Below are positions 9,780 to 44,881 of a DNA stretch of 64,000 bases, one piece after another. Made by a program: the position numbers and the translations under genes. The notes under the pieces are model-generated. The model saw only the letters and a program-made list of their open reading frames with translations, had not been told where the DNA came from and made no database searches. Position 1 is the stretch's first letter, and the number at the start of each line of letters is the position of its first letter. This DNA comes from Beroe forskalii (taxonomy: Eukaryota; Ctenophora; Nuda; Beroida; Beroidae). Where the stretch lies: the NCBI GenBank assembly GCA_011033025.1, contig WFMF01000585.1, positions 32,983 through 96,982 of the forward strand, given 5' to 3'.

Positions 9780-11261
9780 ATATGCGACTAACTTCACTGC
9801 GACACCTTCATTGTCGAACGAACTTCTCACTGCCGAATTTCTCACTGCCTTAACTCACTGTTTCTGCACTGCTGAGAGCTGGAGCTGTCATGAGTGTTGA
9901 CATTGTTGTTCGCAAATTGCTGGCAAACTTACATAAAAACAATCTAGGATATAGCTAACCACGATGATTAAGGATCATACGAAGTAAGATATAAGAGAAA
10001 GACTGCTGCTCACAACTGACTGTGAATATTCATCGACTGTATTATTAATATTGAGCATGATTATTATATTTTTGACGACGAGATGTCAAACGCCGTCAAC
10101 ATTTCGACTTGTCTATTTTATCTATATTTGCTGGGTAAATCGAACTGTATTTTATCAAGTTGAAAGATCTTTTATGAAAAATGAGGACTCTTGTAATTAT
10201 ATAGCCGTGTTTGAAGCAAGTACAACTTATTGTTTGTTATTCAACTTCAAGGACTATTTATCAATTTCAATTTCATTATACATACTGAGCTAGAATAAAT
10301 TTTCTTGTTTGGAATATAGATCATTAAAAACATGATTATCTTACAATATTGCAAATTTTCTTTAAGCTAATGATTTATTTGAATTTCACTAGATTTAGCT
10401 TATTTAGTCGTAGGAATTACATTGTTTGACTTTTGAAATCTTCCAAAATCTTCCATCATTATTGTTTTAAAATTGAAATTAAATTGGAATCGAGTGTGAT
10501 AAGCATTAGATCTGTCTTGAAAATATGAATGAGAGTTCGAATAATTTCAAAACGTTCATTGCAAAAAGCCTGTGTGCAATGATAAGAGAATTTTAGTTAT
10601 TTATTTGTTATGTGAACTATTATTGTTTTGCAATTTACCAAAATTCTATTTTTATTTCCATGAATCCCATGAAAGTTTCCTGACAAAATCTACCCGCCAA
10701 TTTAGCAACTTGACATTTCATTTTCTCCCGCATTCATTATCCTAGAACCTGCCAAAGCCCGTCTAAAACCCGATGTGAAGAGTGTACGGGTAGCTTTTGT
10801 CAAGACAAATCTAGCAATAATGTTCAATATTATGTTGTAGGATTTATCTGCCAAGGGGATGGAGTGGGTTGCAAATGATCACGCTACATGTTATCGTAAC
10901 AGAAACAACTTCTGTAACCTTGATTATGGGGGGGGGGGTACAACTGAAAGGTGTTGAAAATTGATTGCGTAATATGTGAAGTCGATCCCCTTCAACAGAA
11001 TGAATCTGAATTACATTGGTGTGGAATGCGATTACAGCCTTGAATCAAAGTGGTGTCAGTGTCACAATTGACAATGGAAATGATCGCTAATCTGTCTCAT
11101 TGAGAACTGTAACTTCTTTACTTCTACATAACATGAAAAGACATGAGCACTGTAGCTTAAAACGTTACTGGAAAGATACGACACATCTAACAAGCTCTGT
11201 CAGTGGTCACATGACCTCAAGTCACATGACCAATGATCACATGACCAAACTACATGTGTAA
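9780..11261 (+). other. RAPGEF1-like 3' UTR and spacer before the sushi gene
   Basis: The stretch follows the RasGEF stop codon and includes a poly(A) signal at 10294. CTAATGAT at 10367-10374 is the uninterrupted target of the transposon found in the duplicate (18587-21072). No gene is recognised. Confidence 0.7.
10294..10299 (+). terminator. Polyadenylation signal AATAAA, RAPGEF1-like gene
   Basis: AATAAA lies about 515 bp after the stop codon and is conserved in the duplicate at 18504-18509. It is the best candidate for the 3' end of the transcript. Confidence 0.5.
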
Positions 11262-11525
11262 CTCATTCACTCAGACACGTACACACCGCCCATTGTTTCG
11301 CATGATGACATTCTGTGTACTTTTCAGTTTTTAAGAGCTGATTCACTATTATGTTTGTCATGCAGTCAAACGACTATAATTTTAACTAAAATATTTTCTG
11401 CTGGTCAGTCTTGTAGTTTTGATAATCATCCGAGGCAATATATATATCTGTTCGACATCGTCCGTAGCGCATAAATAGTTTTCTAGTTCTAAAATATTTC
11501 CTTGTGGTTTTTTAATCTTCTAAAT
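11262..11525 (+). promoter_or_regulatory. Sushi-gene promoter/5' UTR, copy A
   Basis: This is about 260 bp of strongly matched sequence upstream of both copies of the sushi first exon (compare 21985-22248). It contains a TATA-like GCATAAATAG (about 11468-11478) roughly 50 bp before the ATG. Promoter activity is inferred from position and conservation. Confidence 0.45.
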
Positions 11526-11648
11526 ATGCCTCGACCGGTGGTTACTGTCGTTCTCATGCTACTCTGTCTGGTGGTACATCCTGTCCAATCCTTGACAGAT
11601 GCCTGCACCATGTTACCCTTCGACAACTACAACGACTTAAGTTGCAAG
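11526..11648 (+). pseudogene. Orphan first exon of the sushi-domain gene (signal peptide), copy A
   Basis: This exon encodes 41 residues beginning MPRPVVTVVLMLLCLVV, a signal peptide, followed by TDACTMLPFDNYNDLSCK and an intact donor (AAG then GTAATA). It matches exon 1 of the complete gene at 22249-22371 with a few amino-acid changes. Similarity ends about 40 bp into the intron (near 11690), where transposon debris starts, so exons 2-9 are absent here. Because the promoter, ATG and donor are intact and the phase is 0, it could serve as an alternative first exon for exon 2 at 22747. Otherwise it is a truncated relic. Confidence 0.8.
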
Positions 11649-11735
11649 GTAATAACCGGGGGCAGCAGAAGAATATTTCCAATTCAACTTTAAAAAGGGT
11701 TTTTTAATGATAAGTAGTGCAGAATCAAAAGGGAA

Positions 11736-14299: not shown

Positions 14300-14512
14300 C
14301 ACCCGGACCCCCATTGCTCAGTGAAGTTCACCAAGCCAATGTCACTGAAATGCTGTTCCCAATAAAGCCAGAGCACCCAGTGGGTACCAGTGGCAACTTG
14401 CCGTCGCTATAAGTGGTGTCCCGTGGCCCCAGTGCTGGCAGTGCCCTTAAGGGTACTGTCCCCCTTACTTCCGAGTTTGGGGAACCTACAATACAATACA
14501 ATACAATACAAT
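14300..14512 (+). mobile_element. Probable LINE 3' end with (ACAAT)n tail
   Basis: Non-coding sequence ends GGGGAACCTACAATACAATA, with about five pentamers at 14487-14512. A 3' end with a short-period tail is typical of non-LTR retrotransposons. RasGEF intron homology starts directly after it, so the tail marks the duplication junction. Linking it to the endonuclease fragment upstream is an inference. Confidence 0.5.
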
Positions 14513-14985
14513 ATATGAAATTTAACGATCTTCATTAAACTGTAACGGTGTGCTGCAGCGCAGTGATTTGGTGAAGTAGCATTTCCTGTGCGTTTGTGAA
14601 GAATTGAATGTTCCACTTCAATACTTGACTTCTGGACAAGTACTAAGACAGGCAAATATAACCCACCTAAATTTAATGAGATCTGACTATCTAAGTCACT
14701 ACGTAATATTCTGTGGAGACAAATTCAACGATAATTTATCGTTCATGGGTTGGGTAACTTCTGTAGATGCTCTGATCATGGGAATTTGAATTTCCTATGA
14801 AATTGCTTTTTTTAATTTCACAGAAATAATAAAATCTTTCGGGTGGTTGAATAAAAAATCTCGGCTCTTCTGGATTCGTTCACTCCATAATGAACTAATA
14901 TCAAACCAAAGCATTGTGTTAAAAAATTGATTACGTAATACTAGATCTCATCCCTTGCCCCTCTAACCCATATCCTCCCCTTCAG

Positions 14986-17951
14986 CTGTGTGAAATACTG
15001 ACGTACGTTAAAGTGCCCTCGGAAACCACCTCTCCTAACATGTGCGCCTTCGTCACTCACTTCAACTCCGTCAGCTTCTGGGCCTCCTCCCTCATCCTCC
15101 GACGAGATTCAAAGGTAAGTCAAACACAAGGAAATACTTCCTTCGGGGGGTTAAGTGGGGTGATTAAATCTACCAAATCATAAGGAAATGCCTCATTTGA
15201 GGGTTGCTGTTTTAAGTCATTAAATCTTTTCTAAACACAAGGAAATATCCTATTTGGTGGTGCAGTTTAAAACTCTAGAAAATATTCTGTTGGGGCTTTT
15301 ATCAATGTGAATACCCTTCAAAGAAGTATGTTTTAAAATGCTCAAAAAATGATGAAACAGCCTACCAAAGCAAAAAAGCCCTGCAGACATTGAGCTCCTT
15401 GAAATTATTTCTCGAATTTTATTTTTGCTTGTAGATTTCCTTATTTCCAGATTAAAATTCAAAGTTATGTTAGAAATATTCCATCTGGTTTGATTTCCTC
15501 CAAGTCCAAGGATAATGTTTTACTTCCTTCCGATTAATCATTCTAAACGTTTATTAAATTGATGTATTTAAAATTTCTTAAAAGTTAAATACATACCTTC
15601 CCAGTTTATTTAGTAGTTGATACAAAATCATGATTTATAATTTTGTGGTTATAAGTTCGAGCTGTTTGCTTGAATTTCTGATTCTGCTTATAGAATCTAG
15701 GAAATGAAATCGTTTCTGAACATTCTACTTGGAAACTTCTTATTTTTTAAATATCATAAATACCTCTTAAAACGTTTCTAATCTTCCTACGATCTTAAAC
15801 TTTCACCGCTATTTTATAAATTTTAAATACCCTGGAGCAACATTTTATATTAATGATCGAGAAACTCCGCTTGATTGGTGGGGGAAGCATAATAAGTTTT
15901 GATTGTAATCTGCAGACTCTGCAGGATACCATGGTTCCCTTGAATTGCACCCCTTCTCTCCCTTACCCCGCATGACTCCCTGAAGAGGCGATTACTTTCA
16001 ATTCTTTTAGTTTTTAAGTTTCTCTAGTATCCCTTTCTAACCCTCTCTTAAATCCCCTTTCTAACTCCTCTAACTTTTTTTCTTAAACTCCTCTCTCTCT
16101 CAAACCACTCTCCTTAATTCCTCCCCTAACTCCTCTCTAACCCATCTCTCTAACCCCACTCCCTAACCCTCTCCTAACCCCACTCTAACCCCTCGCTCCC
16201 TCTCCAGGACGACAGACAGCGCGTGTACCGACGTCTCCTCTCCGTGATGGAACACCTCATCAAACTCAACAACTTCTCCTCCGCCTTCGCTCTGTTCGCT
16301 GCCCTCGTTAAAACAGCCGTCAAGAGGGTCGTCAGTCTGTCCAGCAAACAGGAAAAGGTAAGAGGAAATCATTTTTTAGATTTTCAGGGTTTTTAAGTGT
16401 TTTGATGGCGCGAAAGATATACCATGGAGAAACTCGAGTGCTCTTTTCTAATGAACTTTGTCTTGTATAATGCTTGTCTGGTCAAATGCATTCAATAACC
16501 AAATGACTCTTTATTTGCCATTTAAATTTTAGCGCTACTATGTATAAAGTAAATATTTTCAAGTGTTCCTAACATTTCGTGTTTCCCCAGAAACTGGACG
16601 CCTCACAGACGCTCATGGACAGCTCGGAGTCGTACAAGAGCCTCCGTTCAGCCCTCAAGTCCGCCACCCCGCCCCTTATCGCTTACCTTGGACTCTGTGT
16701 GGCAGACCTGACCTTCCTTATTCACGGTACTTAGACTTCCTAATTCCTTAGTGATTGGGAATTAGACTTCCTAATTCGTATGTGATTGGTAATTACTGAG
16801 ATAATAATTGGAGTGAAGTCATTATCATGGTTTAGAATGGTGAATTTATGATGCCAAGTGTTCTATTTATAGTGGCATATTGGCAATATATTAATTCACT
16901 GTAATTCTCCCAATATTTTTGGCAGTACGAAAGGTTTTTTTGTATATAATTTATGCTTTGGTCGCTCGTGCAAATATTAATGATTTACGTTGGGATACCC
17001 TTTAATTTTATATCTCCGACAATTTAAAATTCACGGAATATTAAGTGAAGTCTGGGTGAAATTTGTTAAATGGGAGAATACGTATAACTGCTTGACTTCA
17101 GTCCATGGCAGCAAGTTGTCAGAGAAGTTACCGGAGTTTCTGTAATTGCAAACGGAAGTTTTGTGAGAGCTGAGGCCTGAGACCTGACAGGCATCTTGAT
17201 TCTTGAAAGTTATTGCATTCCAAATGATACATATTGGACTTATGTCAACTGGCAGATGCACAATACTAACCATACCATACGGTCTGTCAGATGAATATTG
17301 CACGTCACAGCAGTGACTTAACGCAATTGCGTTAGATATCTCACTCAATTGCGTTAGATATCTCACTCAATTGCGTTAAATATCTCACTCAATTGCGTTA
17401 GATATCTCACTCAATTGCGTTAGATGCCTCATGCAACTGCTAGATAATATCTCACGCGTTAGATAATATCTCACGCATTCATCACGTGATATCTTGTGAC
17501 ATCTGATATCACGTGACCCAATCACCCTCGTAACCAGGCAACCCTCACTAACCCCACCCTCGTTTCCAGGAAACCCAGACACGTTGGAAAGTGGTGAAGT
17601 CAACTTCACAAAACGCCACCTGACTTACACCTTTATGAACGTGGTGAGGACGAGTCAGGCGGTGCCCTACAACATCGCCCCTCGAGATGACATCATCTGC
17701 TTCCTCAATAACTTCAACGGTGAGTTCGCAGTTCCTTTTATTTTATAACTGTTATCATCTGGACAAAATGTATAATTTTGTCTTATTTTGTCGAACAAAA
17801 TTTTGTCCAATTCCTGAAATTTGGCACGGTATGTTTTTTCGTTTTATTTTTAAACATAGAATTTGACCCAATCCATATTTCAGATCACATGACGGAAGAG
17901 GAAATGTGGCAGAGAAGCGAACAAATCAAACCGAGAAAAAGGAGGAACTGA
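14986..17951 (+). CDS. 5'-truncated duplicate of the RAPGEF1-like gene (most of the CDC25 domain)
   Basis: Five exons are present: 14986-15114, 16208-16357, 16591-16726, 17570-17719 and 17884-17951 (TGA). All have GT-AG borders and the same phases as copy 1. They encode 210 residues identical to the C-terminal part of copy 1; by eye there are 27 synonymous and no non-synonymous differences. The REM domain and the first CDC25 exon are missing, because the duplicated block starts inside an intron. No new promoter or start is evident; the first in-frame ATG is the Met of the PNMCAF motif. The exons could be used as alternative terminal exons after the donor at 2701, which has the matching phase 0, giving the same protein. 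Otherwise this is a recent pseudogene fragment, though the synonymous-only pattern argues against neutral decay. Confidence 0.8.
17320..17440. repeat. Short tandem GCGTTAGATATCTCACTCAA repeat in a RasGEF intron
   Basis: About five to six 20-bp units occur, the last ones degenerate. The equivalent intron of copy 1 (about 6115-6230) has fewer and more divergent units, so the tract changed after the duplication. Confidence 0.75.
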
Positions 17952-18503
17952 ATATGCGACTAACTGCCGAGTGCCACAACTTCACTGCCGCAACTTCACT
18001 GCCGAAACTTCTCACTGCTTTAACTCACTGTTTTTCACTGCCGCAACTTCTCACTGCTTTACTAAAACTCACTGTTTTTGCACTGCTGAGAGCTGGAGCT
18101 GTCATGAGTGTTGACATTGTTGTTCGCAAATTGCTGGCAAACTTACATAAAGACATAAAAACAATCTAGGATATAGCTAACTACGATGATTAAGGATCAT
18201 ACGAAGTACGATATAAGAGAAAGACTGCTGCTCAACTGACTGTGAATATCCATCGACTATATTAAATATTGAGCATGATTATTATATTTTTGACGACGAA
18301 ATGTCAATCGCCGTCGAATTCAACTTGTCTATTTTATCTATATTTGCTGGGTAAATCGAACTGTATTTTATCAAGTTGAAAGTTCTTTTATAAAATAAGG
18401 ACAATTGTAATTATATAGACGTGTTTAAAGCATTTGTTTGTTTTTCAACTTCAAGGACTATTAATCAATTTCAATTTCATGATACATACTGTGCTAGAAG
18501 TAG

Positions 18504-18509
18504 AATAAA
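18504..18509 (+). terminator. Polyadenylation signal AATAAA, duplicate RasGEF
   Basis: This is the counterpart of 10294-10299, about 550 bp after the stop codon at 17949-17951. Conservation in both copies supports it as the transcript end. Confidence 0.45.
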
Positions 18510-18586
18510 ATATATTCTTGTTTGGAATATAGATCATTAAAACATGCTTATCTTACAATATTGCAAATTTCCTTTAAGCTAATGAT

Positions 18587-21072
18587 GGGGGGGGGGCCAA
18601 CCTCGAAAAACCCCGGGTGGATATAAAAATTGGCAAATGGGGGTTTAATTTTTCGGGGTTTATGAGGGTTTAAGGAGGCTAAACTGATAAAAATAGCCAT
18701 TTTTCGGTCGGAAAATTCGATTTTCTCTCAAAATGGTACTACTTTAGTTGTGGATTTTCGGCTCTTCTCTCAAATGGTACCATATTTGTTGAGGATTTTT
18801 GGCACTTTTCTGAAATGGTACCATTTTTGTTGAGGATATTCAACCCTTTTAATTTTATGAAACGGTACCACTTTTAGTTGAGGAATTTTGGCACTTTTCT
18901 GAAATGGTACCATTTTTATTTAAGATTTTCGAGCCTCATCTGAAATGGTACCATTTTTGTTGAGGATTTTCAACCCTTTTCTGAAATGGTACCATTTTGC
19001 TGGAAATTTTTTTGGGCACTTTTCTGAAATGGTACCATTTTTTGTTGACGATTTTCGACCCTTTTCTGAAATGGTACCATTTTTGTTGACGATTTTCGAC
19101 CCTAATCTGAAATGGTACCAATTTTGTTGAGGATTTTCAACCCTTTTCTGAAATGGTGCCATTTTTGCTGAAGATTTTTGGCACTTCTCGGAAATGGTAC
19201 CATTTTTTGTTGACGATTTTCGACCCTTTTCTGAAATGGTACCATATTTGTTGAGGATTTTTGGCACTTTTCTGAAATGGTACCATTTTTGTTGAGGATA
19301 TTCGACCCTTTTTTGAAATGGTACCATTTTTGTTGAGGAATTTTGGCCCTTTTCTGAAATGGTACCATTTTTGTTGACGATTTTCGACCCTTTTCTTAAA
19401 TGGTACCATTTTTGTTGACGATTTTCGACCCTAATCTGAAATGGTACCAATTTTGTTGAGAATTTTCAACCCTTTTCTGAAATGGTGCCATTTTGCTGAA
19501 GATTTTAACTTCTCGGAAATGGTACCATTTTTTGTTGACGATTTTCGTCCCTTTTCTGAAATGGTACCATTTTTGTCGACGATTTTCGACCCTTATCTGA
19601 AATGGTACCATTTTTGTTGAGGATTTTCAACCCTTTTCTGAAATGGTACCATTTTTGCTGGAGATTTTTGGCACTTTTCGGAAATGGTACCATAATTTTT
19701 GTTGAGGAATTTTGGCCCTTTTCTGAAATGGTACCATTTTTGTTGAGGATTTTCGACCCTAATCTGAAATGGTACCATTTTTGTTGAGGATTTACGACCC
19801 TAATCTGAAATGGTACCATTTTTGTTTAGGATTTTCAACCCTTTTCTGAAATGGTACCATTTTTGTTGAGGATATTCGACCCTTTTTTGAAATGGTACCA
19901 TTTTTGTTGAGGAATTTTGGCCCTTTTCTGAAATGGTACCATTTTTGTTGACGATTTTCGACCCTTTTCTTAAATGGTACCATTTTTGTTGACGATTTTC
20001 GACCCTAATCTGAAATGGTACCAATTTTGTTGAGAATTTTCAACCCTTTTCTGAAATGGTGCCATTTTTGCTGAAGATTTTTGGCACTTCTCGGAAATGG
20101 TACCATTTTTTGTTGACGATTTTCGTCCCTTTTCTGAAATGGTACCATTTTTGTCGACGATTTTCGACCCTTATCTGAAATGGTACCATTTTTGTTGAGG
20201 ATTTTCAACCCTTTTCTGAAATGGTACCATTTTTGCTGGAGATTTTGGCACTTTTCGGAAATGGTACCATAATTTTGTTGAGGAATTTTGGCTCTTTTCT
20301 GAAATGGTACCATTTTGTTGAGGATTTTCGACCCTAATCTGAAATGGTACCATTTTTGTTGAGGATTTACGACCCTAATCTGAAATGGTACCATTTTTGT
20401 TTAGGATTTTCAACCCTTTTCTGAAATGGTACCATTTTTGCTGGAATTTTTTTCTGGGCACTTTTCTGAAATGGTACCATTTTTGTTAAGGATTTCGACC
20501 CTTTTCTTAAATGGTACCATTTTTGTTGACGATTTTCGACCCTAATCTGAAATGGCACCATTTTTGTTGAGGATTTTCAACCCTTTTCTGAAATGGTACC
20601 ATTTTTGCTGAAGATTTTTTGGCACTTTTCGGAAATGGTACCTTTTCTGTTGACGATTTTCGACCCTTTTCTGAAATGGTACCTACCATTTTTGTTGACG
20701 ATTTTCAACCCTTTTCTGAAATGGTACCATTTTTGCTGAAAATTTTTGGCACTTTCCTGAAATGGTACCATTTTTGTTGAGGATTTTCGAACCTTTTCTG
20801 AAATGGTACCATTTTTGTTGAGGAATTTTAAAGTTTATTCAGAAACAGTACCATTTTGTAGAAAATTTTCCGAATTTTTTCAAATGGTACCACTTTGATG
20901 ATGATTTTCGACCCTTTTCTGAAATGGTACCATTTTAGTTGTGGATTTTTGGCCCTATTTTGAAATGGTACCCATTTAAACCCCCAAAAACCCCAAAGTG
21001 GATATAAAAAAAGCCAAATAGGGGTTTAATTTTTCGGGGTTTATGGAGGTTTTTCGAGGTTGGCCCCCCCCC
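18587..21072. mobile_element. 2486-bp transposon with GGGGGCCAACCTCG terminal inverted repeats and a minisatellite core
   Basis: The left end is a G-run followed by CCAACCTCGAAAAACC and the right end is its reverse complement. Further subterminal sequence (GGGTTTAATTTTTCGGGGTT) is present at both ends. The 8-bp CTAATGAT is duplicated at 18579-18586 and 21073-21080. The unduplicated target is intact in copy 1 at 10367-10374, so the insertion post-dates the segmental duplication. The 8-bp target duplication fits hAT-like elements among others. No transposase frame exists. Confidence 0.9.
18725..20990. repeat. GAAATGGTACCATTTTTGTT minisatellite (about 35-40-bp period)
   Basis: About 58 tandem units occur, each with the near-palindrome AAATGGTACCATTT plus a variable TTGAGGATTTTCGACCC-like spacer. 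Larger blocks recur internally; for example, the unit order at about 19300-19650 is repeated at about 19860-20240. Frames such as MVPFQKR... on the - strand and MVPFLL... on the + strand are by-products. Confidence 0.92.
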
Positions 21073-21080
21073 CTAATGAT

Positions 21081-21984
21081 TTATTTGAATTTCACTAGAT
21101 TTAGCTTATTTAGTCGTAGGAATTGCATTGTTTGACTTTTGAAATCTTCCAAAATCTTCCATCATTATTGTTTGAAATTGAAATTAAATTAAAATTTAGT
21201 GTGTTGAACATTAGATCTGTCTTGAAAAAATATAATTATGAGAGTTCGAATAATTTTAAAACTTTCAATGCAAAAAGCCTGTGTGCAATGATAAGAGATA
21301 TTTTAGTTATTTATTTGTTATGTGAACTATAATTGTTTTGCAATTTACCAAAATTCTAGTTTTGTTTCCAATCCCATGAAAGGTTTCCTGACAAAAGCTA
21401 CCAGCCAAATTCATTTTCTCGCCATTTCATTTTCTCCCAAAGCCCGCCTCCATGATTTTAAAACCTGCCAAATTACGCCTAAAACCCGATCTTATCAAGA
21501 GAGTACGGGTAACTTTTGTCAAGACTTATCTAGCAATAATATCCAATGTTATGTTCAAGGATTTATCAGCCAGACGGATGGTGGGGGTTTCAAATGATCA
21601 GGCTTCATATTGTTATCGTAACAAAAAATGCTAACGTAACCTTGATTATCAATTATGGGGGGGGCACTGAAAAGTTATGGAAATTAATTACGTATTATTA
21701 TTTGAAAAAGATCCCTCTTCAACAGAATTAATTTGGTTAAAATTGGTGTGGAATGCGAAAGAGGCCCTGAATCGAAGTGGTGTCACATTTGACAATGGAA
21801 ATGATCGCTAATTTGTCTCATTGAGAACTGTAACTTCTTTACTTCTACATTACATGGAAAGTCAGGAGTTCTGTAGCTTGAAACGTTACTGGAAAGATAC
21901 GAAACATCTAACAAGCTCTGGCAGTGGTCACATGACCACTGGTCACATGACCTCTAATCACGTGACCAAACTATTACTACATGT
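21081..21984. other. Spacer between the duplicate RasGEF and the complete sushi gene
   Basis: This continues the copy 2 spacer and is matched by about 10375-11260. Short G-runs and CATGACC repeats are present. No gene is seen. Confidence 0.6.
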
Positions 21985-22248
21985 GTAACTCTCACTCAGA
22001 CACGTACACACCGCCCATTGTTTCGCATGATGACATTCTGTGTACTTTTCAGTTTTTAAGAGCTGATTCACTATTATGTTTGTCATGCAGTCAAAAGACT
22101 CATTTTAACTAAAATATTTTCTGCTGGTCAGTCTTGTAGTTTTGATAATCATTCGGAGCAATAATTATATCTGTTCGACATCGTCCGTAGCGCATAAATA
22201 GTTTTCTAGTTTTAAAATATTTCCTTGTGGTTTTTTAATTTTCTAAAT
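21985..22248 (+). promoter_or_regulatory. Sushi-gene promoter/5' UTR, copy B
   Basis: This is the conserved upstream block shared with copy A (11262-11525), including GCATAAATAG about 50 bp before the start codon. It is probably the promoter of the complete gene. Confidence 0.45.
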
Positions 22249-25200
22249 ATGCCTCGACCGGTGGTTACTGTCGTTTTCGTGCTACTCTGTCTGGCGGTGG
22301 GTCCTGTCCAATCCTTGACAGATGCCTGCACCATGTTACCCTTCGACAACTACAACGACTTAAGTTGTAAGGTAAATTATGCGGCAGCAGCAGAATATTA
22401 TTTCCAATTCTGGTGGTTGAACTAACGTATCAAATTCGAATAATTCTGGTTTTGAGTTTTGAGACTCGGAGTTCATACCAGCATACTGACTGTTGCAAGA
22501 ACTACCAATGTCCAATGACGCATTAACTTTAAGGGATTGTCCACATTTTACGTCATCATCCAACAATTAGGCTGGGGTTTTCAAATTATTACGCTTAAAA
22601 TTAATTAGGGAGAGGCAGTAGGGACTGGGAGAGTCTTTGACACTACAATATACATGAAAAAATCTTCAATTCTTCAAAACTTTTTCCCCAAATTATCATA
22701 AAATCTTCTCTTATTTCATGATGAATATTTCCCAACCAAATTGCAGGTGGACGGGTGGTACAACAACAGTAAACTCCCCTGCAACACGTACCAAGCAGCG
22801 GATCCAGAGGACGCTAGCTTCCTCTACGTCCCCACCGGACTCACTGTCACCATCTACTGCCCTTTTAGGTGAGCACTGTCACCATCTACTGCCCGTTTAG
22901 GTGAGCACTGTCACCATCTACTGCCCTTTTAGGTGAGCACTGTCACCATCTACTGCCCTTTTAGGTGAGCACTGTCACCATCTACTGCCCTTTTAGGTGA
23001 GCACTGTCACCATCTACTGCCCTTTTAGGTGAGCACTGTCACCATCTACTGCCCTTTTAGGTGAGCACTGTCACCATCTACTGCCCTTTTAGGTGAGCAC
23101 TGTCACCATCTACTGCCCTTTTAGGTGAGCACTGTCACCATCTACTGCCCTTTTAGGTGAGCACTGTCACCATCTACTGCCCTTTTAGGTGAGCACTGTC
23201 ACCATCTATTGCCCTTTAGGTGAGCACTGTCACCATCTACTGCCCTTTTAGGTGAGCACTGTCACCATCTACTGCCCTTTTAGGTGAGCACTGTCACCAT
23301 CTACTGCCCTTTTAGGTGAGCACTGTCACCATCTACTGCCCTTTTAGGTGAGCACTGTCACCATCTACTGCCCTTTTAGGTGAGCACTGTCACCATCTAC
23401 TGCCCTTTTAGGTGAGCACTGTCACCATCTATTGCCCTTTTAGGTGAGCACTGTCACTATCTACTGCCCTTTTAGGTGAGCACTGTCACTATCTACTGCC
23501 CTTTTAGGTGAGCACTGTCACTATCTACTGCCCTTTTAGGTGAGCACTGTCACTATCTACTGCCCTTTTAGGTGAGCACTGTCACCATCTATTGCCCTTT
23601 TAGGTGAGCACTGTCACTATCTACTGCCCTTTTAGGTGAGCACTGTCACCATCTACTGCCCGTTTAGGTGAGCACTGTCACCATCTATTGCCCTTTTAGG
23701 TGAGAAGTAGGGCCCTTTTTTTGGGCACGTGTCTCACTGTTGCCATCCACTGTCCTTCAAGATGAAGTATAGAGCCCTTTCAAAGGGCATTGGGCAGAAC
23801 GCGTCCTTCACGAGAGATATGAAATTGAATTGCAAAAGTTTTGCTCAAAATTAGGATTTTTCATTTCTTATCAATATCAAAGAGATACTGATGCTCCCAT
23901 GATTTGCAGGACGGTTCTGATAGGAGCAAGTGTGTACGAGTGCAAGGAAGATGGGTTCGACCCACCCATCAAGATAAGCAACACGACAGATCGGATAGAC
24001 CCCCATCCAGTGTGTCTAGGAGTGGACTTCATGCAGGTCTGCTTCTGTATTAACAGACACCAAAGGAATACTTTCCATTTCGATAATTATATTGGATCGA
24101 TTTTAGATTTTCATGTAAACACTTTGAATAAATCCGTGCAAAACTTTTCAATAAATTCTGATATAAGATTAATTCATTCGAAGAGTTTAATCTCCTCCCC
24201 TTCCCTCAGGATGGGCTGTGTGAAGCGGACACCCTTTCCAGACTGCCCGGCTCCAACTACCAGCTGTACAGCGATGCTAACTACGTGTTTGTGGGTCAGG
24301 AGTACGAGGTGGAGTGCCAGCCGGGGTTCAGTGTCTCCACCAGGGCTCCACAGAGGTACGAGGAAATGTGTAAGATATACAATGTACATTTTATACAATG
24401 TACATTGTACATTCTGTGCATACATCAATATATACATTTTGTAGAATTACACGTTTAATTGAGTAATTGTACATTGTATTGTATTGTATTGTATTGTATT
24501 GTATTGTATTGTATTGTATTGTATTGTATTGTATTGTATTGTATTGTATTGTATTGTATTGTATTGTATTGTATTGTATTGTATTGTATTGTATTGTATT
24601 GTATTGTATTGTATTGTATTGTATTGTATTGTATTGTATTGTATTGTATTGTAAACACTGTACATTCTGTGTACAATTCATACATTTAATAAAATTAACT
24701 TGTACATTTCTTGCATTGTATACAATGTACATTGAGTACGATGTATACATTCAACATTGTATTGTATATCATGAACATTGTGTGTATTATGTATAGTGTA
24801 TACCTGACACTCCCTCAGGCAGCAGACTGGTACGTGCTCTGAAGCAGGAGAGTGGACACTGCGTGGGACAGAGTGTCTGGGGATGTGTGACCCGGAGGTC
24901 AGGTACACCGGACCTGACAAAAACACCCCCACCAACTTCACCCACTACACGGACCTTACAGCCACCACCGAGCTGGGAGTGGGCCTCCAGCCCGTGGGCA
25001 CAGAGGTAGGCTGTTATATTGCCTCACCTCCGCACATGAACCCAAATGTTTGAGTATTTCACCTTGACTTGGGGAAATTACAATTAACTCCCAATTTGAT
25101 TTAACCCTCCTATTTCCTCATTTGGACATCACAATTAACCACCAATTAACCCTCCTATCCAGGTGAACATCACTATAACGTGTGAGGAAGGTAGTTCCCC

Positions 25201-27419
25201 CACGGGTCTGAGGTCGGGGGAGTTCACTCTAACCTGCACTGTGAGTAACAGCAGTGTTAGGGAGGGGCAGTACGCACACACAAGATACCAGGACACTGTC
25301 AACTGCAAACGTGAGTATTGTCGCTGTCGGTTTTGTCATTGCTTTTTGTCAATTGCGAGAGAAGATCAGAAGTGATCCCCATCCAGGAGCTATCCCTACA
25401 TGCTTTAGTATTTGTAAAGGACATGTGTACCATGACAACTGCCAATTTCGAGAATCCCTGAAAGTTTGAAGCAGGAAGCTGGCCATTTCCAATTTCCGAC
25501 CTTTCAAACAACTCTATATCTCCAGGTAACTGCATGGTACCCGAACTGCCTGAAGGACGTCTGATAGACCCGTACACAGGCTCCACCCTGGAACCCGGCA
25601 CTTTGACCCTCCTGAACGGGGAGGACTCTGCCAGGATGAGGTGTCCGGCAGGGACCTACGCTCTGGGAAGAGTCCGGATTGCGTGTTATGACGGAGAGAT
25701 CACTCACCCTCTGCCTACTTGTACAAGTGGGTTTAAGTTCAACAAATACAATCAGCGAATTCGCTAGATATCATGATTTCATATTATTGGGGCAAAGTAT
25801 ATTCTTTCTTTCTTTAATCTCTTTTTTAGTTTGCTCCAAATTTTGAAATGAAAATCCCTGAAGCGGTCGTTAGAACCGAACTCAAGTTTTAACTTCATTC
25901 TCAGCCATGACCTCTGAACGTGAACCATGAGACGTTAATTTAAATCAACCCTTTCCCTGCAGGGACCTTACAGCCGTGTGAAGCACCTCTCGTTGAGAAC
26001 GGAGTACGTGACCCATGGCACCTGGCACCCGGAGGTCAGTACCAAGTGGAGTGTCTGCCTGGGTACACCCTCCCAGTCACCGTATCCCCGGTAGTGTCCT
26101 GTGCGGCGCTGAGGGGCAGAGTGACAGATCTGGGGGTGCCTGCTGCAACCCTCTCCCCTGCTTCCAGCTACACCTGCCACAGTAAGTGATGTCTATTTAA
26201 ATATATTCAAGTGTATATTTCCGTCATTCCCAGTTGAGGAAGAGTGGAAATGGTACTGCAGGCAATGCTTGACATTTGGGAATTATTTGACTCCACAACT
26301 CCAATTTGAATATAAATAAAGCTCTATAATCTTATATATAATTTCGTAAGAGCACGTGAATTATGTCTGTCTGTGCGGGCGCACATTTTAAATTTGAGCT
26401 TGCCAAGAAAATATCAAGGAAAACGAAGGTTAAGATGCGCATAATGGTACCGTTGCTATGGATACAGATATTCTGCACGTGCAGATTATGATCAGTTCTA
26501 TGCGAGTGCTTTCTGATATGTTGTATATTGCTGCGGTTTAGCGTCTGAAAGAACGACGTGTTTACTGTTTTTCATTTGAAATTCAAGATCTGGAAATTGA
26601 GAACGGGTATGGCTGGCATCGTGGAGGCTATTTCCGATAGCATCTCTTCATAAATATGTGACAGACGTCGGTTGATTTAAATCAATGCTGAGTTGATGGT
26701 AACGGAAATATGAATTTAGAGCAATTTAAGATTGCACAAAATCAAAATCAAATTGAATCGAATTTGGGCATAGCACATTGCGATTTCGGAATACTGCTCT
26801 TGGCGTGAATCAATGCTTTAATTCAACGTTCAGTATGAGAACGATAGTCGGTTTTAATTTTAAGATTTAAATTCGTTATACAAGAGCAAATTATAATGAA
26901 CAAAACTTGCACGTTCCAGCATTACTAAAAGTAACCAACGAATAATGGTAAATTCTGCTCCTTCATAAACTTTTTGAGAGCTTATAATTTGGTCCTGTAT
27001 TATCTAGCAGGCCCAACGGGCCTTTCTAGTTGTAACTATAAATTTAAAGAATTTAAACTTGAAGCTCAAACACTAAATTTACTGTAATTCAATTTCTAAG
27101 CCTGGAACTTTCGTCAGGCGGTTGCCGGGTTCCCTTCAGCACCCTCTCCCACGGCTCACTGCGCCCTGCTCCCAGTCTCTCCTCCTCCTCTGCTCCCTAC
27201 CAACCCGGGCAGTCCGTCACTATCACGTGTTTTAAGGACGAGTCACGTGAGGGGTCACGTGACGTGGTGCACGTGCACACGTGCATCTGGGACGGGTGGG
27301 ATAGTGAGGAGTGGCCGGATTGCACCCCTAGTTACGTGTCAAGTGGCAGCGCTTCTTCTGGAACACTTTCAGTTATCGTGGGAGTAATATCCCTTGCTTT
27401 GTATCCCAAGTGGTATTGA
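22249..27419 (+). CDS. CCP/sushi-domain secreted or GPI-anchored protein, complete (524 aa)
   Basis: Nine exons join in frame: 22249-22371, 22747-22868, 23910-24036, 24210-24355, 24819-25005, 25163-25310, 25526-25726, 25963-26181 and 27118-27419 (TGA). Residues 1-22 form a signal peptide. The rest is cysteine-rich with about six CCP-like modules, such as CMVPELPEGRLIDP (exon 7), PCEAPLVENGV...YQVECLPGYTL (exon 8) and CRVPF...GQSVTITCF...W (exon 9). Exons 7 and 8 are symmetrical phase-1 modules, as is usual for sushi exons. The end has small residues (SSGSASSG) before a short hydrophobic stretch (LSVIVGVISLAL), which suggests a GPI signal or weak membrane anchor. It is probably an extracellular adhesion, complement-like or recognition protein; the ligand is unknown. 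Intron 2 begins with a minisatellite copied from its own splice junction, and intron 8 carries a Helitron. Confidence 0.88.
22869..23699 (+). repeat. 32-bp minisatellite derived from the exon 2/intron 2 junction (26 units)
   Basis: The last 24 bases or so of exon 2 plus the start of the intron (CACTGTCACCATCTACTG, then CCCTTTTAG, then GTGAGCA) are repeated in tandem. There are 26 units in 831 bp, all 32 bp except one of 31 bp. Each unit recreates the donor TTTTAG/GTGAGC, and its pyrimidine-rich CCCTTTTAG can also look like an acceptor. Variants (CTATTG, CACTATC) cluster in the distal half. The phase changes with each unit because 32 is not a multiple of 3. Confidence 0.95.
24474..24653. repeat. 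(GTATT)n pentanucleotide microsatellite, about 36 units
   Basis: A pure pentamer run occurs in intron 4 of the complete sushi gene. Its right edge coincides with the left edge of the duplicated block represented by copy C (homology from about 24655 and 40990). Open frames across it on both strands are artefacts. Confidence 0.97.
26330..27029 (+). mobile_element. Non-autonomous Helitron, 700 bp, in sushi intron 8
   Basis: It begins TCTTATATATAATTTCG and ends with a hairpin (AGGCCC-AA-CGGGCCT) followed by TTCTAG. It is inserted between A and T with no target duplication. The paralogous intron has the empty site (CTATAA/TTGTAAC at 42787/42788). 5'-TC, a 3' hairpin plus CTAG, and insertion into AT are the defining Helitron features. 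No Rep/helicase frame is present. Confidence 0.92.
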
Positions 27420-27763
27420 TGGTGATACATGATATTGATAGACTTAAGAAATATGATGAACGAGATATTGAAAGCTAATGGTAATAGTAATAGCGTCAGA
27501 CGTCAATTTCGTGACAAATTTATTTTAAAGCCTTTATTTTTAGTAAAAAAGAGTAAATAAACCTCAGCCTTGACATCATCATTGTCAGACCTTAGCTGTA
27601 GAATGTAGACTTAGAGACTGTGACATGAAAATTGCAATTGGATATGAAAGCCTAATGGAAGCCTAATCACAATTGATTTGAATTGAATCATATGACAGTT
27701 TGAGCTTTAAAATGAATATAATTTTTAATTGTCTTCGTTCATCAGACAAAACCAAGTAGAAAC
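27420..27763 (+). other. 3' UTR and flank of the complete sushi gene
   Basis: This contains a poly(A) signal AATAAA at 27556-27561 and AT-rich sequence up to the GC-rich array. It is matched by 43166-43486. No other gene is visible. Confidence 0.6.
27556..27561 (+). terminator. Polyadenylation signal AATAAA, sushi gene
   Basis: It lies about 140 bp after the stop codon. In truncated copy C the corresponding site reads GATAAA (about 43289), so the perfect hexamer is lost there. Confidence 0.5.
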
Positions 27764-30700
27764 GTACAGCAGCACGTGCTTCTCCAAAGAGAAACGTACG
27801 GCGGCACTTGCTTCTCCACAGAGGAGCACACGGCGGCGGGTGCTTCTCCGCAGAGAAGCGCACTGCGCCGCATGCTTCTCCGCAGAGAAGCGCACTGCGC
27901 CGCATGCTTCTCCGCAGAGAAGCGCACTGCGCCGCATGCTTCTCGACAGAGAAGCGCACGGCGCCGCATGCTCTCGACAGAGAACTAGAAGCGCACGGCG
28001 CCGCATGCTTCTCGACAGAGAAGCGCACGGCGCCGCATACTTCTCGACAAATAAGCTAACGGCGCCGCATGCTTCTCGACAAATAAGCTAACGGCGCCGC
28101 ATGCTTCTCGACAGAGAAGCACACGGCACCGCATGCTTCTCGACAGAGAAGCACACGGCACCGCATGCTTCTCGACAGAGAAGCGCACGGCGCCGCATGC
28201 TTCTCGACAGAGAAGCGCACGGCGCCGCATGCTTCGACAGAGAAGCGCACGGCGCCGCATGCTTCTCGACAGAGAAGCGCACGGCGCCGCATGCTTCTCG
28301 ACAGAGAAGCGCACGGCGCCGCATGCTTCTCGACAGAGAAGCGCACGGCGCCGCATGCTTCTCGACAGAGAAGCGCACGGCGCCGCATGCTTCTCGACAG
28401 AGAAGCGCACGGCGCCGCATGCATGCTTCGACAGAGAAGCGCACGGCGCCGCATGCTTCTCGACAGAGAAGCGCACGGCGCCGCACGCTTCTCGACAGAG
28501 AAGCGCACGGCGCCGCATGCTTCTCGACAGAGAAGCGCACGGCGCCGCATGCTTCTCGACAGAGAAGCGCACGGCACCGCATGCTTCTCGACAGAGAAGC
28601 GCACGGCGCCGCATGCTTCTCGACAGAGAAGCGCACGGCGCCACATGCTTCTCGACAGAGAAGCGCACGGCGCCGCATACTTCTCGACAGAGAAGCGCAC
28701 GGCGCCCCATGCTTCCTGAAAAAGGAATGCATGGCGCTGCATGCTTCTCGACAGAGAATCGCACGGCGCCGCATGCTTCTGGACAGAGAAGCGCATGGCG
28801 CCGCATGCTTCTCCACAGAGAAGCACCCCATGCTTCTCCACAGAGAAGCGGCGCATGCTTCTCCACAGAGAAGCGGCTCATGCTTCTCCACAGAGAAGCA
28901 GCGCATGCTTCTCCACAGAGAAGCGGCGCATGCTTCTCCACAGAGGAGCGGCGCATGCTTCTCCACAGAGGAGCGGCGCATGCTTCTCCACAGAGAAGTG
29001 GCGCATGCTTCTCCACAGAGAAGCGGCGCATGCTTCTCCACAGAGAAGCGGCGCATGCTTCTCCACAGAGAAGCGGCGCATGCTTCTCCACAGAGAAGCG
29101 GCGCATGCTTCTCCACAGAGAAGCGGCGCATGCTTCTCCACAGAGAAGCGGCGCATGCTTCTCCACAGAAGCGGCGCATGCTTCTCCACAGAGAAGCGGC
29201 GCATGCTTCTCCACAGAGAAGCGGCGCATGCTTCTCCACAGAGAAGCGGCGCATGCTTCTCCACAGAGAAGCGGCGCATGCTTCTCCACAGAGAAGCGGC
29301 GCATGCTTCTCCACAGAGAAGCGGCGCATGCTTCTCCACAGAGAAGCGGCGCATGCTTCTCCACAGAGAAGCGGCGCATGCTTCTCCACAGAGAAGCGGC
29401 GCATGCTTCTCCACAGAGAAGCGGCGCATGCTTCTCCACAGAGAAGCGGCGCATGCTTCTCTACAGAGAAGCGGCGCATGCTTCTCCACAGAGAAGCGGC
29501 GCATGCTTCTCCACAGAGAAGCGGCGCATGCTTCTCCACAGAGAAGCGGCGCATGCTTCTCCACAGAGAAGCGGCGCACGCTTCTCCACAGAGAAGCGGC
29601 GCATGCTTCTCCACAGAGAAGCGGCGCATGCTTCTCCACAGAGAAGCGGCGCATGCTTCTCCACAGAGAAGCGGCGCATGCTTCTCTACAGAGAAGCGGC
29701 GCATGCTTCTCCACAGAAAAGCGGCGCATGCTTCTCCACAGAGAAGCGCCGCATGCTTCTCGACAGAGAAGCGCACGGCGCCGCATGCTTCTCGACAGAG
29801 AAGCGCACGGCGCCGCATGCTTCTCGACAGAGAAGCGCACGGCGCCGCATGCTTCTCGACAGAGAAGCGCACGGCGCCGCATGCTTCTCGACAGAGAAGC
29901 GCACGGCGCCGCATGCTTCTCGACAGAGAAGCGCACGGCGCCGCATGCTTCTCGACAGAGAAGTGCACGGTGCCGCATGCTTCTCGACAGAGAAGCGCAC
30001 GGTGCCGCATGTTTCTCGACAGAGAAGCGCACGGCGCCGCATGCTTCTCGACAGAGAAGCGCACGGCGCCACATGCTTCTCGACAGAGAAGCGCACGGCG
30101 CCGCATGCTTCTCGACAGAGAAGCGCACGGCGCCGCACGGCGCTTCTCGACAGAGAAGCGCACGGCGCCGCATGCTTCCTCGACAGAGAAGCGCACGGCG
30201 CCGCATGCTTCTCGACAGAGAAGCGCACGGCGCCGCATGCTTCTCGACAGAGAAGCGCACGGCGCCGCATGCTTCTCGACAGAGAAGCGCACGGCGCCGC
30301 ATGCTTCTCGACAGAGAAGCGCACGTTGCCGCATGCTTCTTGACAGAGAAGCGCACGTTGCCGCATGCTTCTCGACAGAGAAGCGCCGCATGCTTCTCGA
30401 CAGAGAAGCGCCGCATGCTTCTCCACAGAGAAGCGCCGCTTGCTTCTCCACAGAGAAGCGCCGCATGCTTCTCGACAGAGAAGCGCACGGCGCCGCATGC
30501 TTCTCGACAGAGGCGCACGGCGCAGCATGCTTCTCGACAGAGAAGCGCACGGCGCCTCATGCTTCTCGACAGAGAAGCGCACGGCGCTGCATGCTTCTGG
30601 ACAGAGAAGCGCACGGCGCCAAATCTTTCTCGACAGAGAAGCGCACGGCGCCACATACTTCTCGACAGAGAAGCGCACGGCGCCGCATACTTCTCGACAG

Positions 30701-30890
30701 AGAAGCGCACGGCGCCCCATGCTTCCTGAAAAAGGAATGCATGGCGCTGCATGCTTCTCGACCGAGAATCGCACGGCGCCGCATGCTTCTGGACAGAGAA
30801 GCGCATGGCGCCGCATGCTTCTCCACAGAGAAGCACCCCATGCTTCTCCACAGAGAAGTGCACGGCAGTGCGTGCTTCTCCACAGGAAAT
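27764..30890. repeat. GC-rich 32-bp/25-bp minisatellite, array 1
   Basis: Type I units are 32 bp and contain GCATGC, the hairpin GCTTCTC-GACA-GAGAAGC, and GGCGCC. Type II units are 25 bp and carry only the hairpin and GCATGC part (with CACA as loop). The order is type I (27764-28830), type II (28830-29750), type I (29750-30370), mixed, type I to 30890. A distinctive unit with GCTTCCTGAAAAAGGAATGC occurs at 28711 and again at 30721 with the same neighbours, so a block of about 2.0 kb was duplicated. The unit has no stop codon in any frame of either strand, which produces long meaningless frames (up to 945 codons). Confidence 0.95.
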
Positions 30891-32470: not shown

Positions 32471-34619
32471 TAAGTTTTAGGGGCATAGGGCACCCGTCAG
32501 GGGCAAAGGGGGACTACGCAGGCATATCTCAGCGTAAAGCCCCTGAACAGGGCACAGGCACTCGCTGCCGGGCAATTCGGGGCCACTGCCTATGTTATGT
32601 GATATTGTTATTCTATTGTTTTGAAGGGTTTTATTGTTATTGTAAGGATACTATTCTGATTTTATTGTGATTTAGGGTAAAGTAATCTGTAATCGTACTA
32701 ATCTGTAATGTATTCAATACATACTAGATACCTATACTTAAGACTTCAGTGTTATTTTCATAGCCTTATTCGTGGTGTGTCCTATTGTTATTTTGGGGCT
32801 CTGTTAGCGGACACCAGGCACTACGACAGGGCACTGGGCCACTACGTAATGTCTACGTTATTCCAAGGATCTTTATTGTTATTCTTGGGTTCCTATTGTT
32901 ATTTGAGTCATTCGACGTTAGGGCACTGGGCACTACGTCGGGGCACTGGGGCACTATGTCCACGTCATGTGATATTGGTATTCAATTGTTTTGCACGGTT
33001 AAGGCCATGGTTCTGTTTATCATTTTAAGGATCCTATTAGTATTCTATGGATCCCATTGTTATTCCCATGGCCTCCATTGTTATTCTAAGATTCGAAGGG
33101 TCCTATTGTTATACTTAGGGTTCTGCTGTTACTGTTAGGGTCTCATTGTTATTTATTAGTGCCCTATTGTTATTCTAAGGGTCCTATTCTCATACTAAGG
33201 GTCCTATTGTTATTCTAAGGCTCTATTGTTATTTCAAGGTCCTACTGTTATTTTAAGGGTCCTATTGTTATTTCAAGGGTCTTATTGTTATTTGAAGGGT
33301 CCTTTTGTTATTCTAACGTCCCTTTGTTATTCCTAAGCGTCCTATTGTTATTTTAAGGGTCTACTTGTTATTTTAAGGGTCCTTTTGTTATTTTAAGGGT
33401 CTTATTGTTATTTGAAGGGCCCTTTTGTTATTCTAACGGTCCTTTTGTTATTCTAAGGGTCCTATTGTTATTTTAAGGATCTTATTGTTATTCTAAGGGT
33501 CCTATTGTGATGGCTCTCAGGATCCTATTGTTATTCCAAGGGTCCTATTGTTATTTTAAGGGTCTTATTGTTATTTTAAGGGCCCTATTCTCATACTAAG
33601 GATCCTATTGTTATTCCAAGAGTCTTATTGTAATTTTAAGGGTCTTATTGTTATTTCAAGGGTCCTTTTGTTATTCTAAGTGCCTTATTATTATTCTAAA
33701 GGTCCTATTCTTATACTAGAATCCTATTGTTAATCTATGGTTCCTATTGTTATTTTGGGGCTCTTGTTATTATAAGATTCTAAGGATCCTATTGTGATAC
33801 TTAGGTTCTACGCAAGGCAGTTAGTCCCATTTTAGTGCCCTGTTGTTATTCTAAGGGTCCTATTCTCACACTAAGGATCCTATTGTTATTCCAAGGGTCC
33901 TATTGTTATTTTAAGGGTATTATTGTTATTCTAAGGGCCCTATTCTCATACTAAGGATCCTATTGTTATCCCAAGCGTCCTATTGTTATTTTAAGGATCT
34001 TATTGTTATTCTAAGGGTCCTATTGACATTCTCCAGGATCCTATTGTTATTCCAAGGGTCCTATTGTTATTTTAAAGGTTCTTATTGTTATTTTATGGGT
34101 CTGGCTGTTATTCTAAGTGACCCCTTTGTTATCCCAAGTGCCTTATTATTCTAAAGCGGTCCTTATAACTTAATACAATCTTAATTCCTTGGGCTTTTTA
34201 TTTAAAGGTCTCTGTTACAGATTCTGGGTGGGTCTCCACAGTTATACCTTAGGCTCCCCGGCTTGCTACACTGTTAGGGGTCCCATTTTTTGAGCTGGCC
34301 CCTCTGTGGCATCCCTGTCATTGGGATTCCTATTAAAGACGGCGTCCTAGCTGTTATTCTAAAAGTTTTAAGATTTCAGGTCCTTTTGTTGGTTCTTAGC
34401 CCTTTGTTATGTTTTATGACTTCAGTTATTCCTAAGGGTCCTGGTCTCTATACTGAGGATCCTATTGTTATTCCAACGGGTCGTATTGTTATATTAGGGT
34501 CTTATTGTTATTTTAAGGGTCCTTTATCCTAATTGTCTCATTATTATTCTAAGGGTCCTATTCTAACACTTAAAGGAACCCTATTGTTATTGTTAGGCTT
34601 TCTTCCTATTGTTTCTCTA

Positions 34620-35323: not shown

Positions 35324-36784
35324 TTATAATAACAAAAGGATCACCGTTAGAATAACAAAAGGACCCTTAAAATAACAATAAGATCCTTGATATAACAATA
35401 GGACCCTTGGAATAACAATAGGATCCTTAGTATGAGAATAGGGCCCTTAAAATAACAATAATACCCTTAAAATAACAATAGGACCCTTGGAATAACAATA
35501 GGATCCTTAGTGTGAGAATAGGACTGTAGCAGGGCACCAAAAAAAAATGGGACCCTAACTGTAGCAGCAGAACCCTAAGTATCTTATAATAACAAGAGGC
35601 CTTAAAATAACAATAGGAACCATAGATTAACAATAGGATTCTAGTATAAGAATAGGACCTTTAGAATAATAATAAGGCACTTAGAATAACAAAAGGACCC
35701 TTGAAATAACAATAAGACCCTTAAAATTACAATAAGACTCTTGGAATAACAATAGGATCCTTAGTATGAGAATAGGGCCCTTAAAATAACAATAAGACCC
35801 TTAAAATAACAATAGGACCCTTGGAATAACAATAGGATCCTGAGTATCACAATAGGACCCTTAGAATAACAATAAGATCCTTAAAATAACAATAGGACCC
35901 TTAGAATAACAAAAGGACCGTTAGAATAACAAAAGGGCCCTTCAAATAACAATAAGACCCTTAAAATAACAATAGGACCCTTAAAATAACAAGTAGACCC
36001 TTAAAATAACAATAGGACGCTTAGAATAACAAAAGGGACGTTAGAATAACAAAAGGACCCTTCAAATAACAATAAGACCCTTGAAATAACAATAGGACCC
36101 TTAAAATAACAGTAGGACCCTTGAAATAACAATAAGAGCCTTAGAATAACAATAGGACCCTTAGTATGAGAATAGGACCCTTAGAATAACAATAGGGCAC
36201 TAATAATAACAATGAGACCCTAACAGTAACAGCAGAACCCTAAGTATAACAATAGGACCCTTCGAATCTTAGAATAACAATGGAGGCCATAGAATAACAA
36301 TGGGATCCATAGAATAACAATAGGATCCTTAAAATGATAAACAGAACCATGGCCTTAACCGTGCAAAACAATTGAATACCAATATCACATGACGTAGACA
36401 TAGTGCCCCAGTGCCCCGACGTAGTGCCCAGTGCCCCAACGTCGAATGACTCTTAGAATAACAATAGGAACCCAAGAATAACAATAAGATCCTTGGAATA
36501 ACGTAGACATTACGTAGTGGCCCAGTGCCCTGTCGTAGTGCCCTGGTGTCCTTCTTCAGAGCCTTAAAATAACAATAGGACACACCACGAATAAGGCTAT
36601 GAAAATAACACTGAAGTCTTAAGTGTAGGTATCTAGTATGTATTGAATACACGATTACAGATTAGTACACGATTACAGATTGCACTTTACTCCTAAATCA
36701 CAATAAAATCAGAATAGTATCCTTACAATAACAATAAAACCCTTCAAAACAATAGAATAACAATATCACATAACATAGAGTTAG

Positions 36785-39900: not shown

Positions 39901-40620
39901 TATTTTGTGGATAGAATACACTCAAATTTGCAGTCAAGTGAATTTTCATTTGCCGTCGACATTATATATAATTAATTATAATCATGATATATATAGTAAC
40001 ATGTATATTATATACTTTAACGGCCGTTAAATACATTCGTTGAATGTAGAATGGAGGGTTAATCGTATCGAGGGAGCGGAACTTTAGCTGTCATCCGGAC
40101 TGTATATCCTTCCACCGTCCGTGTAAATGAGATGTTGCCATGGAAACAGCAGATGTTTTTTCATTTCATTGAGTTTAAAACATAGTCTACTGGTATTTTC
40201 TAACTGAGGCACTTATCCGAAAGGCGCCAAAAAGGCTTTTAGTATTTCGATATTCAACAGTTTTTTTCGAGTCCGTATGTTTCCTTGGGGCTATGATTTT
40301 TGAAGACATCCTCATTTACTTGCTTTAGTCCGGGTGGCAGTAACCAGAGTCCCTTTAGCAGTCTGGAATATTTGTTTCTTGAAGAAATGAGAGTGCGGAG
40401 TGACAGCAGCCTGGCAACCAGGACGATGCTTGTCACATCCGTGTTTTAGACTTTTTGTGTGTGTTTCTGTGTACTTCTAACTCGGCGCATTTGAATTGTG
40501 CCGGCTTTGTTACGAAAAATTTGAACTGACCTGGGGTGGTAACTGAAGCACCTATTGACTTGGAATTTTCTGTACTTGCAGCGTTAACTGTGAAGGAGAT
40601 ACTTTGTACTGAGTGTTTTG
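36909..40620. repeat. Giant inverted repeat, left arm
   Basis: About 3.7 kb is matched in inverted orientation by 46465-49932 plus 52644-52970. Example pairs: 37040-37080 with 52800-52850, 37735-37790 with 49340-49410, 38620 with 48440, 40040-40140 with 46935-47045. No conserved protein is encoded. It contains the undisturbed target (CTGATCAG, 37216-37223) of the transposon that interrupts the right arm. Clustered CCAAT/ATTGG motifs lie at 39450-39540. Confidence 0.93.
38163..38221. repeat. 19-bp GTGGACATGCCACGTTACC tandem repeat, about 3 units
   Basis: The corresponding place of the right arm (48828-48976) has about eight units in inverted orientation, so copy number changed after the arms separated. 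Confidence 0.9.
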
Positions 40621-40989: not shown

Positions 40990-41157
40990 TGATTGCATTG
41001 TACATTCTGTGTACAATTCATACATTTAATAAAAATTAACTTGTACATTTCTTGCATTGTATACAATGTACATTGAGTACGATGTATACATTCAACATTG
41101 TATTGTATATCATGAACATTGTGTGTATTATGTATAGTGTACCTGACACTCCCTCAG

Positions 41158-44868: not shown

Positions 44869-44881
44869 TACCAAGTAGAAA

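Follow-up and report, generated by a model that had tools for sequence, protein, structure and literature searches.

A tandem array of splice donors at an exon–intron junction of a sushi-domain gene, probably a passenger minisatellite resembling the mirages of amphioxus

Introduction

How does a gene keep its splicing in order when the sequence that marks the end of one of its exons stands there 27 times over? The question is raised by a locus in the window, as we call the whole 64,000-nucleotide stretch of DNA that was analysed, in which the border between the second exon and the second intron of a predicted gene has become the unit of a minisatellite, each copy carrying the same 5' splice site motif. 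Artificial constructs are the usual means of studying how one of several identical, adjacent donors is chosen, and a search of the literature found neither a paper joining ctenophores, minisatellites and introns nor a genome-wide account of junction minisatellites. What, then, would decide which of these donors is used, and is the locus alone in its genome?

The array and its host gene

The gene and its array comprise the following features (positions are those of the window; a slash in a motif marks the exon–intron border):

22249..22371, forward strand: exon 1, with start codon and hydrophobic N-terminus, ending in phase 0 (open frame, GT/AG joins)
22747..22868, forward strand: exon 2, 122 nt, ending ...CCT TTT AG in phase 2
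22842..23704, forward strand: exon 2/intron 2 junction repeated in 27 tandem copies, with a 32-bp unit made of 27 exonic and 5 intronic bases
22842..22873, forward strand: unit 1, which is the genuine junction, its donor GT standing at 22869
23673..23704, forward strand: unit 27, with the final AG/GTGAG, GT at 23700, C16T variant
23735..23790, forward strand: diverged second copy of the unit plus downstream intron sequence, ~55 bp, donor decayed (local alignment)
23910..24036, forward strand: exon 3
24210..24355, forward strand: exon 4 (Pfam Sushi across exons 4–5)
24820..27418, forward strand: exons 5–9, limits approximate (open frames between AG and GT, by eye)

The first four exons join in frame. 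Pfam places a Sushi domain above its gathering score in exons 4–5 only (residues 142–191, 23.9 bits versus a cut-off of 20.7) and detects none over exons 2–3, so that the label 'sushi', which the first-pass annotation had attached to exon 2, is borne out for the gene but not confirmed for that exon itself.

TRF, run on the window, describes the array as 27.0 copies of period 32 with 97% matches, and splitting it into units leads to the same picture: exon 2 contributes its final 27 bases to unit 1 and intron 2 its initial 5, and 26 extra copies follow this genuine junction head to tail. The earlier description of a minisatellite built from an exon/intron junction, with 26 tandem copies and 27 equivalent donors, is thereby confirmed, AG/GTGAG being kept in 27 of 27 units with GT positions that run from 22869 to 23700; its limits (22845..23703) located the array correctly, and were off by 3 at the start and by 1 at the end. 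Sixteen of the 27 units are identical to the consensus, and the variants, confined to units 2, 12 and 19–27, are C10T (five units, namely 20–23 and 25), C16T (three), T22G (two) and a single 31-bp unit that lacks one T and also has C16T. An acceptor-like CCCTTTTAG had been ascribed to every unit; it is exact in 24 and fails in the remaining 3, and 12 of the 14 bases ahead of the AG in the unit are pyrimidines. The unit and exon 2 were found at a single place in the 216-Mb assembly by a search scoring best candidates only, and no second haplotype of the locus was found in this one assembly.

Directly behind the array, the sequence at 23735–23790 aligns locally with the unit and the intron downstream of it (score 44, against a maximum of 36 in 2000 shuffles) and is without the GT. 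With this diverged copy present, the same border seems to have been duplicated before, with a longer unit. Exon 1 has a duplicate at 11528–11648 (94% identity) and the region of exons 5–9 another at 40996–43480 (82–85% identity); the middle of the gene lies outside these duplications, and it is for this reason that no array-free paralogue of the exon 2/intron 2 junction was found.

The window is rich in other repeats. Four pairs of segmental duplications of 82–87% identity, three direct (3400–6594 and 14511–17846; 9676–11685 and 17848–22410; 24656–27742 and 40996–43480) and one inverted (37216–40618 and 49932–46467), have left the sushi gene flanked on both sides by incomplete copies of itself. 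The element inserted at 18587–21072 is lacking at the paralogous site near 10374. Its ends are inverted and bear a run of G or C, a target duplication of 7 or 8 bp, (C)TAATGAT, is apparent, and a 54-copy minisatellite of 41-bp units lies within it; its appearance is that of a non-autonomous DNA transposon with a minisatellite inside. Growth of that 41-bp array (18731–20977) from a single-copy seed was considered and rejected; it lies inside an insertion that the paralogous site lacks. Long G+C-rich arrays of 32-bp units stand at 27777–30885 and 44877–46190, where both strands contain open reading frames several hundred codons long, and two inverted arrays of 20-bp units, ~1.2 kb apart, form a palindrome-like arrangement at 33091–34117 and 35324–36335.

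Coding consequences of leaving the first donor

What would the gene make if another donor were chosen, or if units were included as microexons? Joining donors 2, 3, 4, 6 or 27 to the next exon places, in every case, a TGA in frame at the junction and yields a single product of 82 aa, and the inclusion of one to three microexons of 32 nt ends at the same stop with the same 82 residues. The cause is simple: exon 2 ends in phase 2, and AG/GTGA is therefore read as AGG TGA. The suggestion that the array could yield frame-shifted isoforms was accordingly abandoned, all tested deviations from the first donor amounting to one truncation.

Related arrays elsewhere in the genome

The 216-Mb assembly (1,134 contigs) was searched for AGGTGAG occurring three times with gaps of 15–45, counted as overlapping matches, which gave 5,065 matches against 3,168 for the reversed motif. 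The 100 matches listed resolve into ten arrays within 3.58 Mb of sequence, made up of contig C1 together with the initial 1.05 Mb of C2. Five of them (L025, L039, L047, L055 and L056) begin where an open exon has its 3' end, and an AG is visible in front of that exon; L040 is a doubtful member of this donor-side group, having an open frame, no clear acceptor and an ambiguous exon end. L046 (G000:C1, ~1,623,668, minus strand) is of the acceptor-side form, with three copies of a pyrimidine tract, CAG and exon start that end at an open terminal exon (GETLADRLMTHIYNDSS...). No exon was seen at L038 and L054, where both edges were read, or at the upstream edge of L057. The stricter pattern of three CAGGTAAG showed seven arrays among 100 matches listed, of which L059, L061, L063 and L064 start at an exon end, and L065/L066 (G000:C216, ~181,823–185,004) is a single acceptor-side array, ~3 kb of 29-bp units ending at an open exon; each unit resembles an intron in miniature, with GTAAG, TTAAC, a pyrimidine tract and CAG. 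On the upstream side, L060 had no clear exon and L062 was of low complexity. Thus, among the matches listed, 17 arrays other than that of the window, which lies on C675, comprise nine donor-side arrays and one doubtful one, two acceptor-side arrays and five that are exonless at the edges read. Five clear donor-side arrays per 3.58 Mb would extrapolate to ~300 per 216 Mb, an estimate resting on parts of 2 of the 1,134 contigs and on the assumption that the matches listed there are complete.

Several of these arrays sit in genes that can be named. Homology continues to the last residues before the array in iPGM (E 2.6e-13) and MCM5 (E 7.2e-12), and ends six residues short of it in an M1 aminopeptidase (E 1.1e-7). 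In the first two the next exon follows the array, and a join between the first donor and the acceptor of that exon restores conserved protein sequence, ...HTAHTCNR/VPFYMDGG in iPGM and ...PIGSQ/VSEARIIQDF in MCM5. Weaker homologies at array edges are to KSR2 kinase (0.0084) and, for L025, TRIP12 (0.016); Pfam gives L055 a Sushi match below cut-off (0.014) and L064 only Stathmin, also below cut-off (0.032), with no PDB match. No homology was found for the exons of L040 (Pfam), L056 and L059, the last of which presumably resembles a cathepsin; the exon calls at L040, L056, L059 and L064 have an open frame and splice signals as their basis. Even so much makes it plain that the window array is no private oddity, since like anatomy recurs at conserved genes of the same genome.

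The outcome of a shift from donor 1 to donor 2 varies among them. In iPGM (36 bp), MCM5 (39), the TRIP12-like gene (30) and L055 (18) the added unit keeps the frame and contains no stop, and likewise at L056, where the unit is 24 bp and the next AGGT-type donor stands 72 bases on. A stop is met in the aminopeptidase gene (25) and L059 (41), as in the window array (32), and the frame is shifted at L040 (44), L061 (31) and L064 (43).

Are donors favoured as birthplaces of arrays, and are the copies preserved?

Triple matches of CAGGTAAG number 695; three 8-mers with the same bases in permuted order give 40 (the reverse), 16 and 193, while single sites number 6,031 against 4,967 for the reverse and, for AGGTGAG, 32,769 against 37,393. 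No significance is claimed for the triple-motif excess, because a few long arrays (the acceptor-side array on C216 accounts for 61 of the 100 CAGGTAAG matches listed) and dispersed GAGTGGAGCC repeats inflate the counts, and as evidence that donors are a hot spot for the birth of arrays it is suggestive only. Rough arithmetic that assumes 30-bp seeds, and scales the ~12 arrays of period 15–50 in the 64-kb window to 216 Mb, puts ~0.4% of any 7-base site in arrays; chance seeding alone may therefore suffice. Of the 3,168 matches of the reversed motif, the 100 listed, which reach contig C77, include nine clusters on C1 and C2, and in the eight whose upstream side was examined (all save C1:254320) no array spans an exon end; at L069–L071 the upstream flank is itself repeat. 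The control is weak: the matches listed cannot be the full set, and a donor motif is likelier to stand at a real donor anyway. One control array without the donor motif, L067 (G000:C1, ~25,450), starts a few bases behind what looks like the donor of an open exon; arrays may therefore also start just inside introns.

If the repeated donors were of use, should they not have diverged less than the rest of the unit? Mean divergence in AGGTGAG and in the other unit positions, respectively, is 0 and 0.018 in the window array, which has no variant within the motif, 0.060 and 0.063 in L047, 0.020 and 0.031 in L025, 0.016 and 0.034 in L040, 0.060 and 0.030 in L055, and 0.098 and 0.105 in L056 (for L055 and L056, from part of each array). 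AGGTGAG is thus slightly less diverged in five of the six arrays and more so in L055, a difference indistinguishable from chance because the independent changes are so few. With no sign of consistent extra preservation across the six, selection for repeated donors was dropped as an explanation; weak preservation is still compatible with these figures.

How might the array have arisen and been tolerated?

Perhaps the answer to our opening question lies in the geometry of the duplication itself. The reading that we favour, at a probability of about 0.83, is that of a neutral minisatellite born at the junction, akin to the amphioxus mirages, in which the exon-proximal donor does the work. The minisatellite would have been born when sequence spanning the exon 2/intron 2 boundary of the sushi-domain gene was duplicated in tandem, and would then have grown to 27 units; the spliceosome would pick the donor at 22869, and the other 26 would be carried as intronic passengers. 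Because duplication of a junction leaves the full exon and an intact donor at the 5' edge, the gene should keep working as long as the first donor is used, and such an array would protect itself at any copy number, everything behind the edge donor being free to serve as intron. Any leak to downstream donors would end in the one truncated 82-aa product, a likely substrate for decay. First-donor use and neutrality are what we infer, and the former is favoured by the presence of arrays in MCM5 and iPGM and by the amphioxus reports. Against this reading it counts that the motif is slightly less diverged in five of six arrays, as weak preservation would allow, that in experiments with duplicated identical donors the intron-proximal site can be favoured, from which the last donor, rather than the first, would be predicted, and that 5 of the 17 listed arrays are exonless at the edges read.

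It is also conceivable, if improbable, that the array works as a regulated switch, donor competition setting the level of full-length product and the rest becoming the 82-aa fragment or a decayed transcript. In its favour, all 27 donors are intact and every alternative outcome tested converges on one stop; that stop, however, follows trivially from the phase-2 AG/GTGA, the in-frame open units of iPGM (36), MCM5 (39), the TRIP12-like gene (30) and L055 (18) reveal no shared design, and repeated donors elsewhere are not consistently preserved. Slightly less probable still is recursive, self-cleaning splicing, in which each unit would be a pair of 3' and 5' splice sites, the pyrimidine-rich CTGCCCTTTTAG/GTGAG, and splicing between units would remove whole units and leave the same junction. 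Such removal would be silent by construction, as the structure of the unit implies, and the 12 of 14 pyrimidines before the AG fit it; yet the ten other donor-side arrays have only 4–10 of 14 there, and the tract of the window unit therefore looks like a by-product of its Cys-Pro-Phe codons. Least probable of all is an assembly artefact or an expansion private to one animal. The copy number does come from the assembly alone; against this stand the ordered differences among units (C10T in units 20–23 and 25), the older, decayed duplication of the same border behind the array and the recurrence of the anatomy on other contigs, and it is this recurrence at conserved genes of the same genome that makes either unlikely as a general account.

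Returning to the junction-born passenger, can it be generalized? It is possible, although we hold it only tentatively and would sooner bet against it, that donor-spanning arrays form a genome-wide class, present in hundreds of introns, those of essential single-copy genes included, which arise or persist above comparable sequence and which a robust first-donor rule renders harmless, so that introns grow and occasionally are born.

The host lineage

The mitochondrial contig (13,339 bp) carries a COX1 that is open under code 4 and contains six AGA codons and one AGG, several of them at arginines conserved with mammals. Given their mitochondrial codes, AGA read as Arg speaks against lancelets, tunicates and echinoderms, and, as AGA stands at a conserved Arg here, the host is not a lancelet. 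The COX1 is strongly diverged from that of vertebrates, about half of its residues being identical by eye, and A+T reaches 80% over the 2.8 kb examined. In 6.5 kb of this contig ARAGORN found no tRNAs (with the bacterial code, hence a weak result), and Rfam had no match on the part searched. The cited source (PMC6991124) describes code 4, fast evolution and a lack of tRNAs for ctenophores. We take the host to be a probable ctenophore.

Comparison with known systems

The closest relatives of the array are the mirages of amphioxus, tandem repeats that span exon–intron boundaries, carry AG/GT in many of their units and are unstable in length, and that, according to the cited reports, apparently leave regular splicing unharmed, RT-PCR suggesting that it is normal (PMC3087553, PMC3902484). 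Their hosts include Adh3, the globins BflGb6 and BflGb9, TnC and PGBD5 (PMC3087553, PMC3902484), and their units measure 10–72 bp in Adh3 and 150–160 bp in the globins (PMC3087553). The window array has the structural features of this kind: it spans a boundary with the presumably functional junction as its edge unit, 27 of 27 units carry AG/GT, and its 32-bp unit falls in the range of Adh3; moreover, donor-side and acceptor-side forms are both present in this genome. It differs in having 27 units, whereas the BflGb6 haplotypes have 6 and 3 (PMC3087553), in the company of at least nine further donor-side arrays in one genome, MCM5 and iPGM included, and in a host that is not a cephalochordate; lineage is no structural criterion, and membership in the kind is unaffected by it. 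Internal tandem repeats at human exon–intron boundaries in segmental duplications, recognized by comparing human RNAs with the genome and averaging 30-bp units in 4 copies, are said to cause novel introns (PMC2812944). They share with our array minisatellite-size units at such a boundary; the window array, by contrast, has 27 copies and is known from DNA alone. In the Rogers model introns are gained by duplication of AG/GT proto-splice sites (cited in PMC3087553), and the window repeats do carry AG/GT at their edges, unlike in that model at an intron that pre-exists. Donor arrays bear on intron growth as well as intron gain, and where a genome carries many of them naturally, with identical or nearly identical donors at conserved genes such as MCM5 and iPGM, it offers a ready-made experiment on donor choice. 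Mirages, reported in the sources cited only from lancelets, would herewith be extended to a distant animal lineage.
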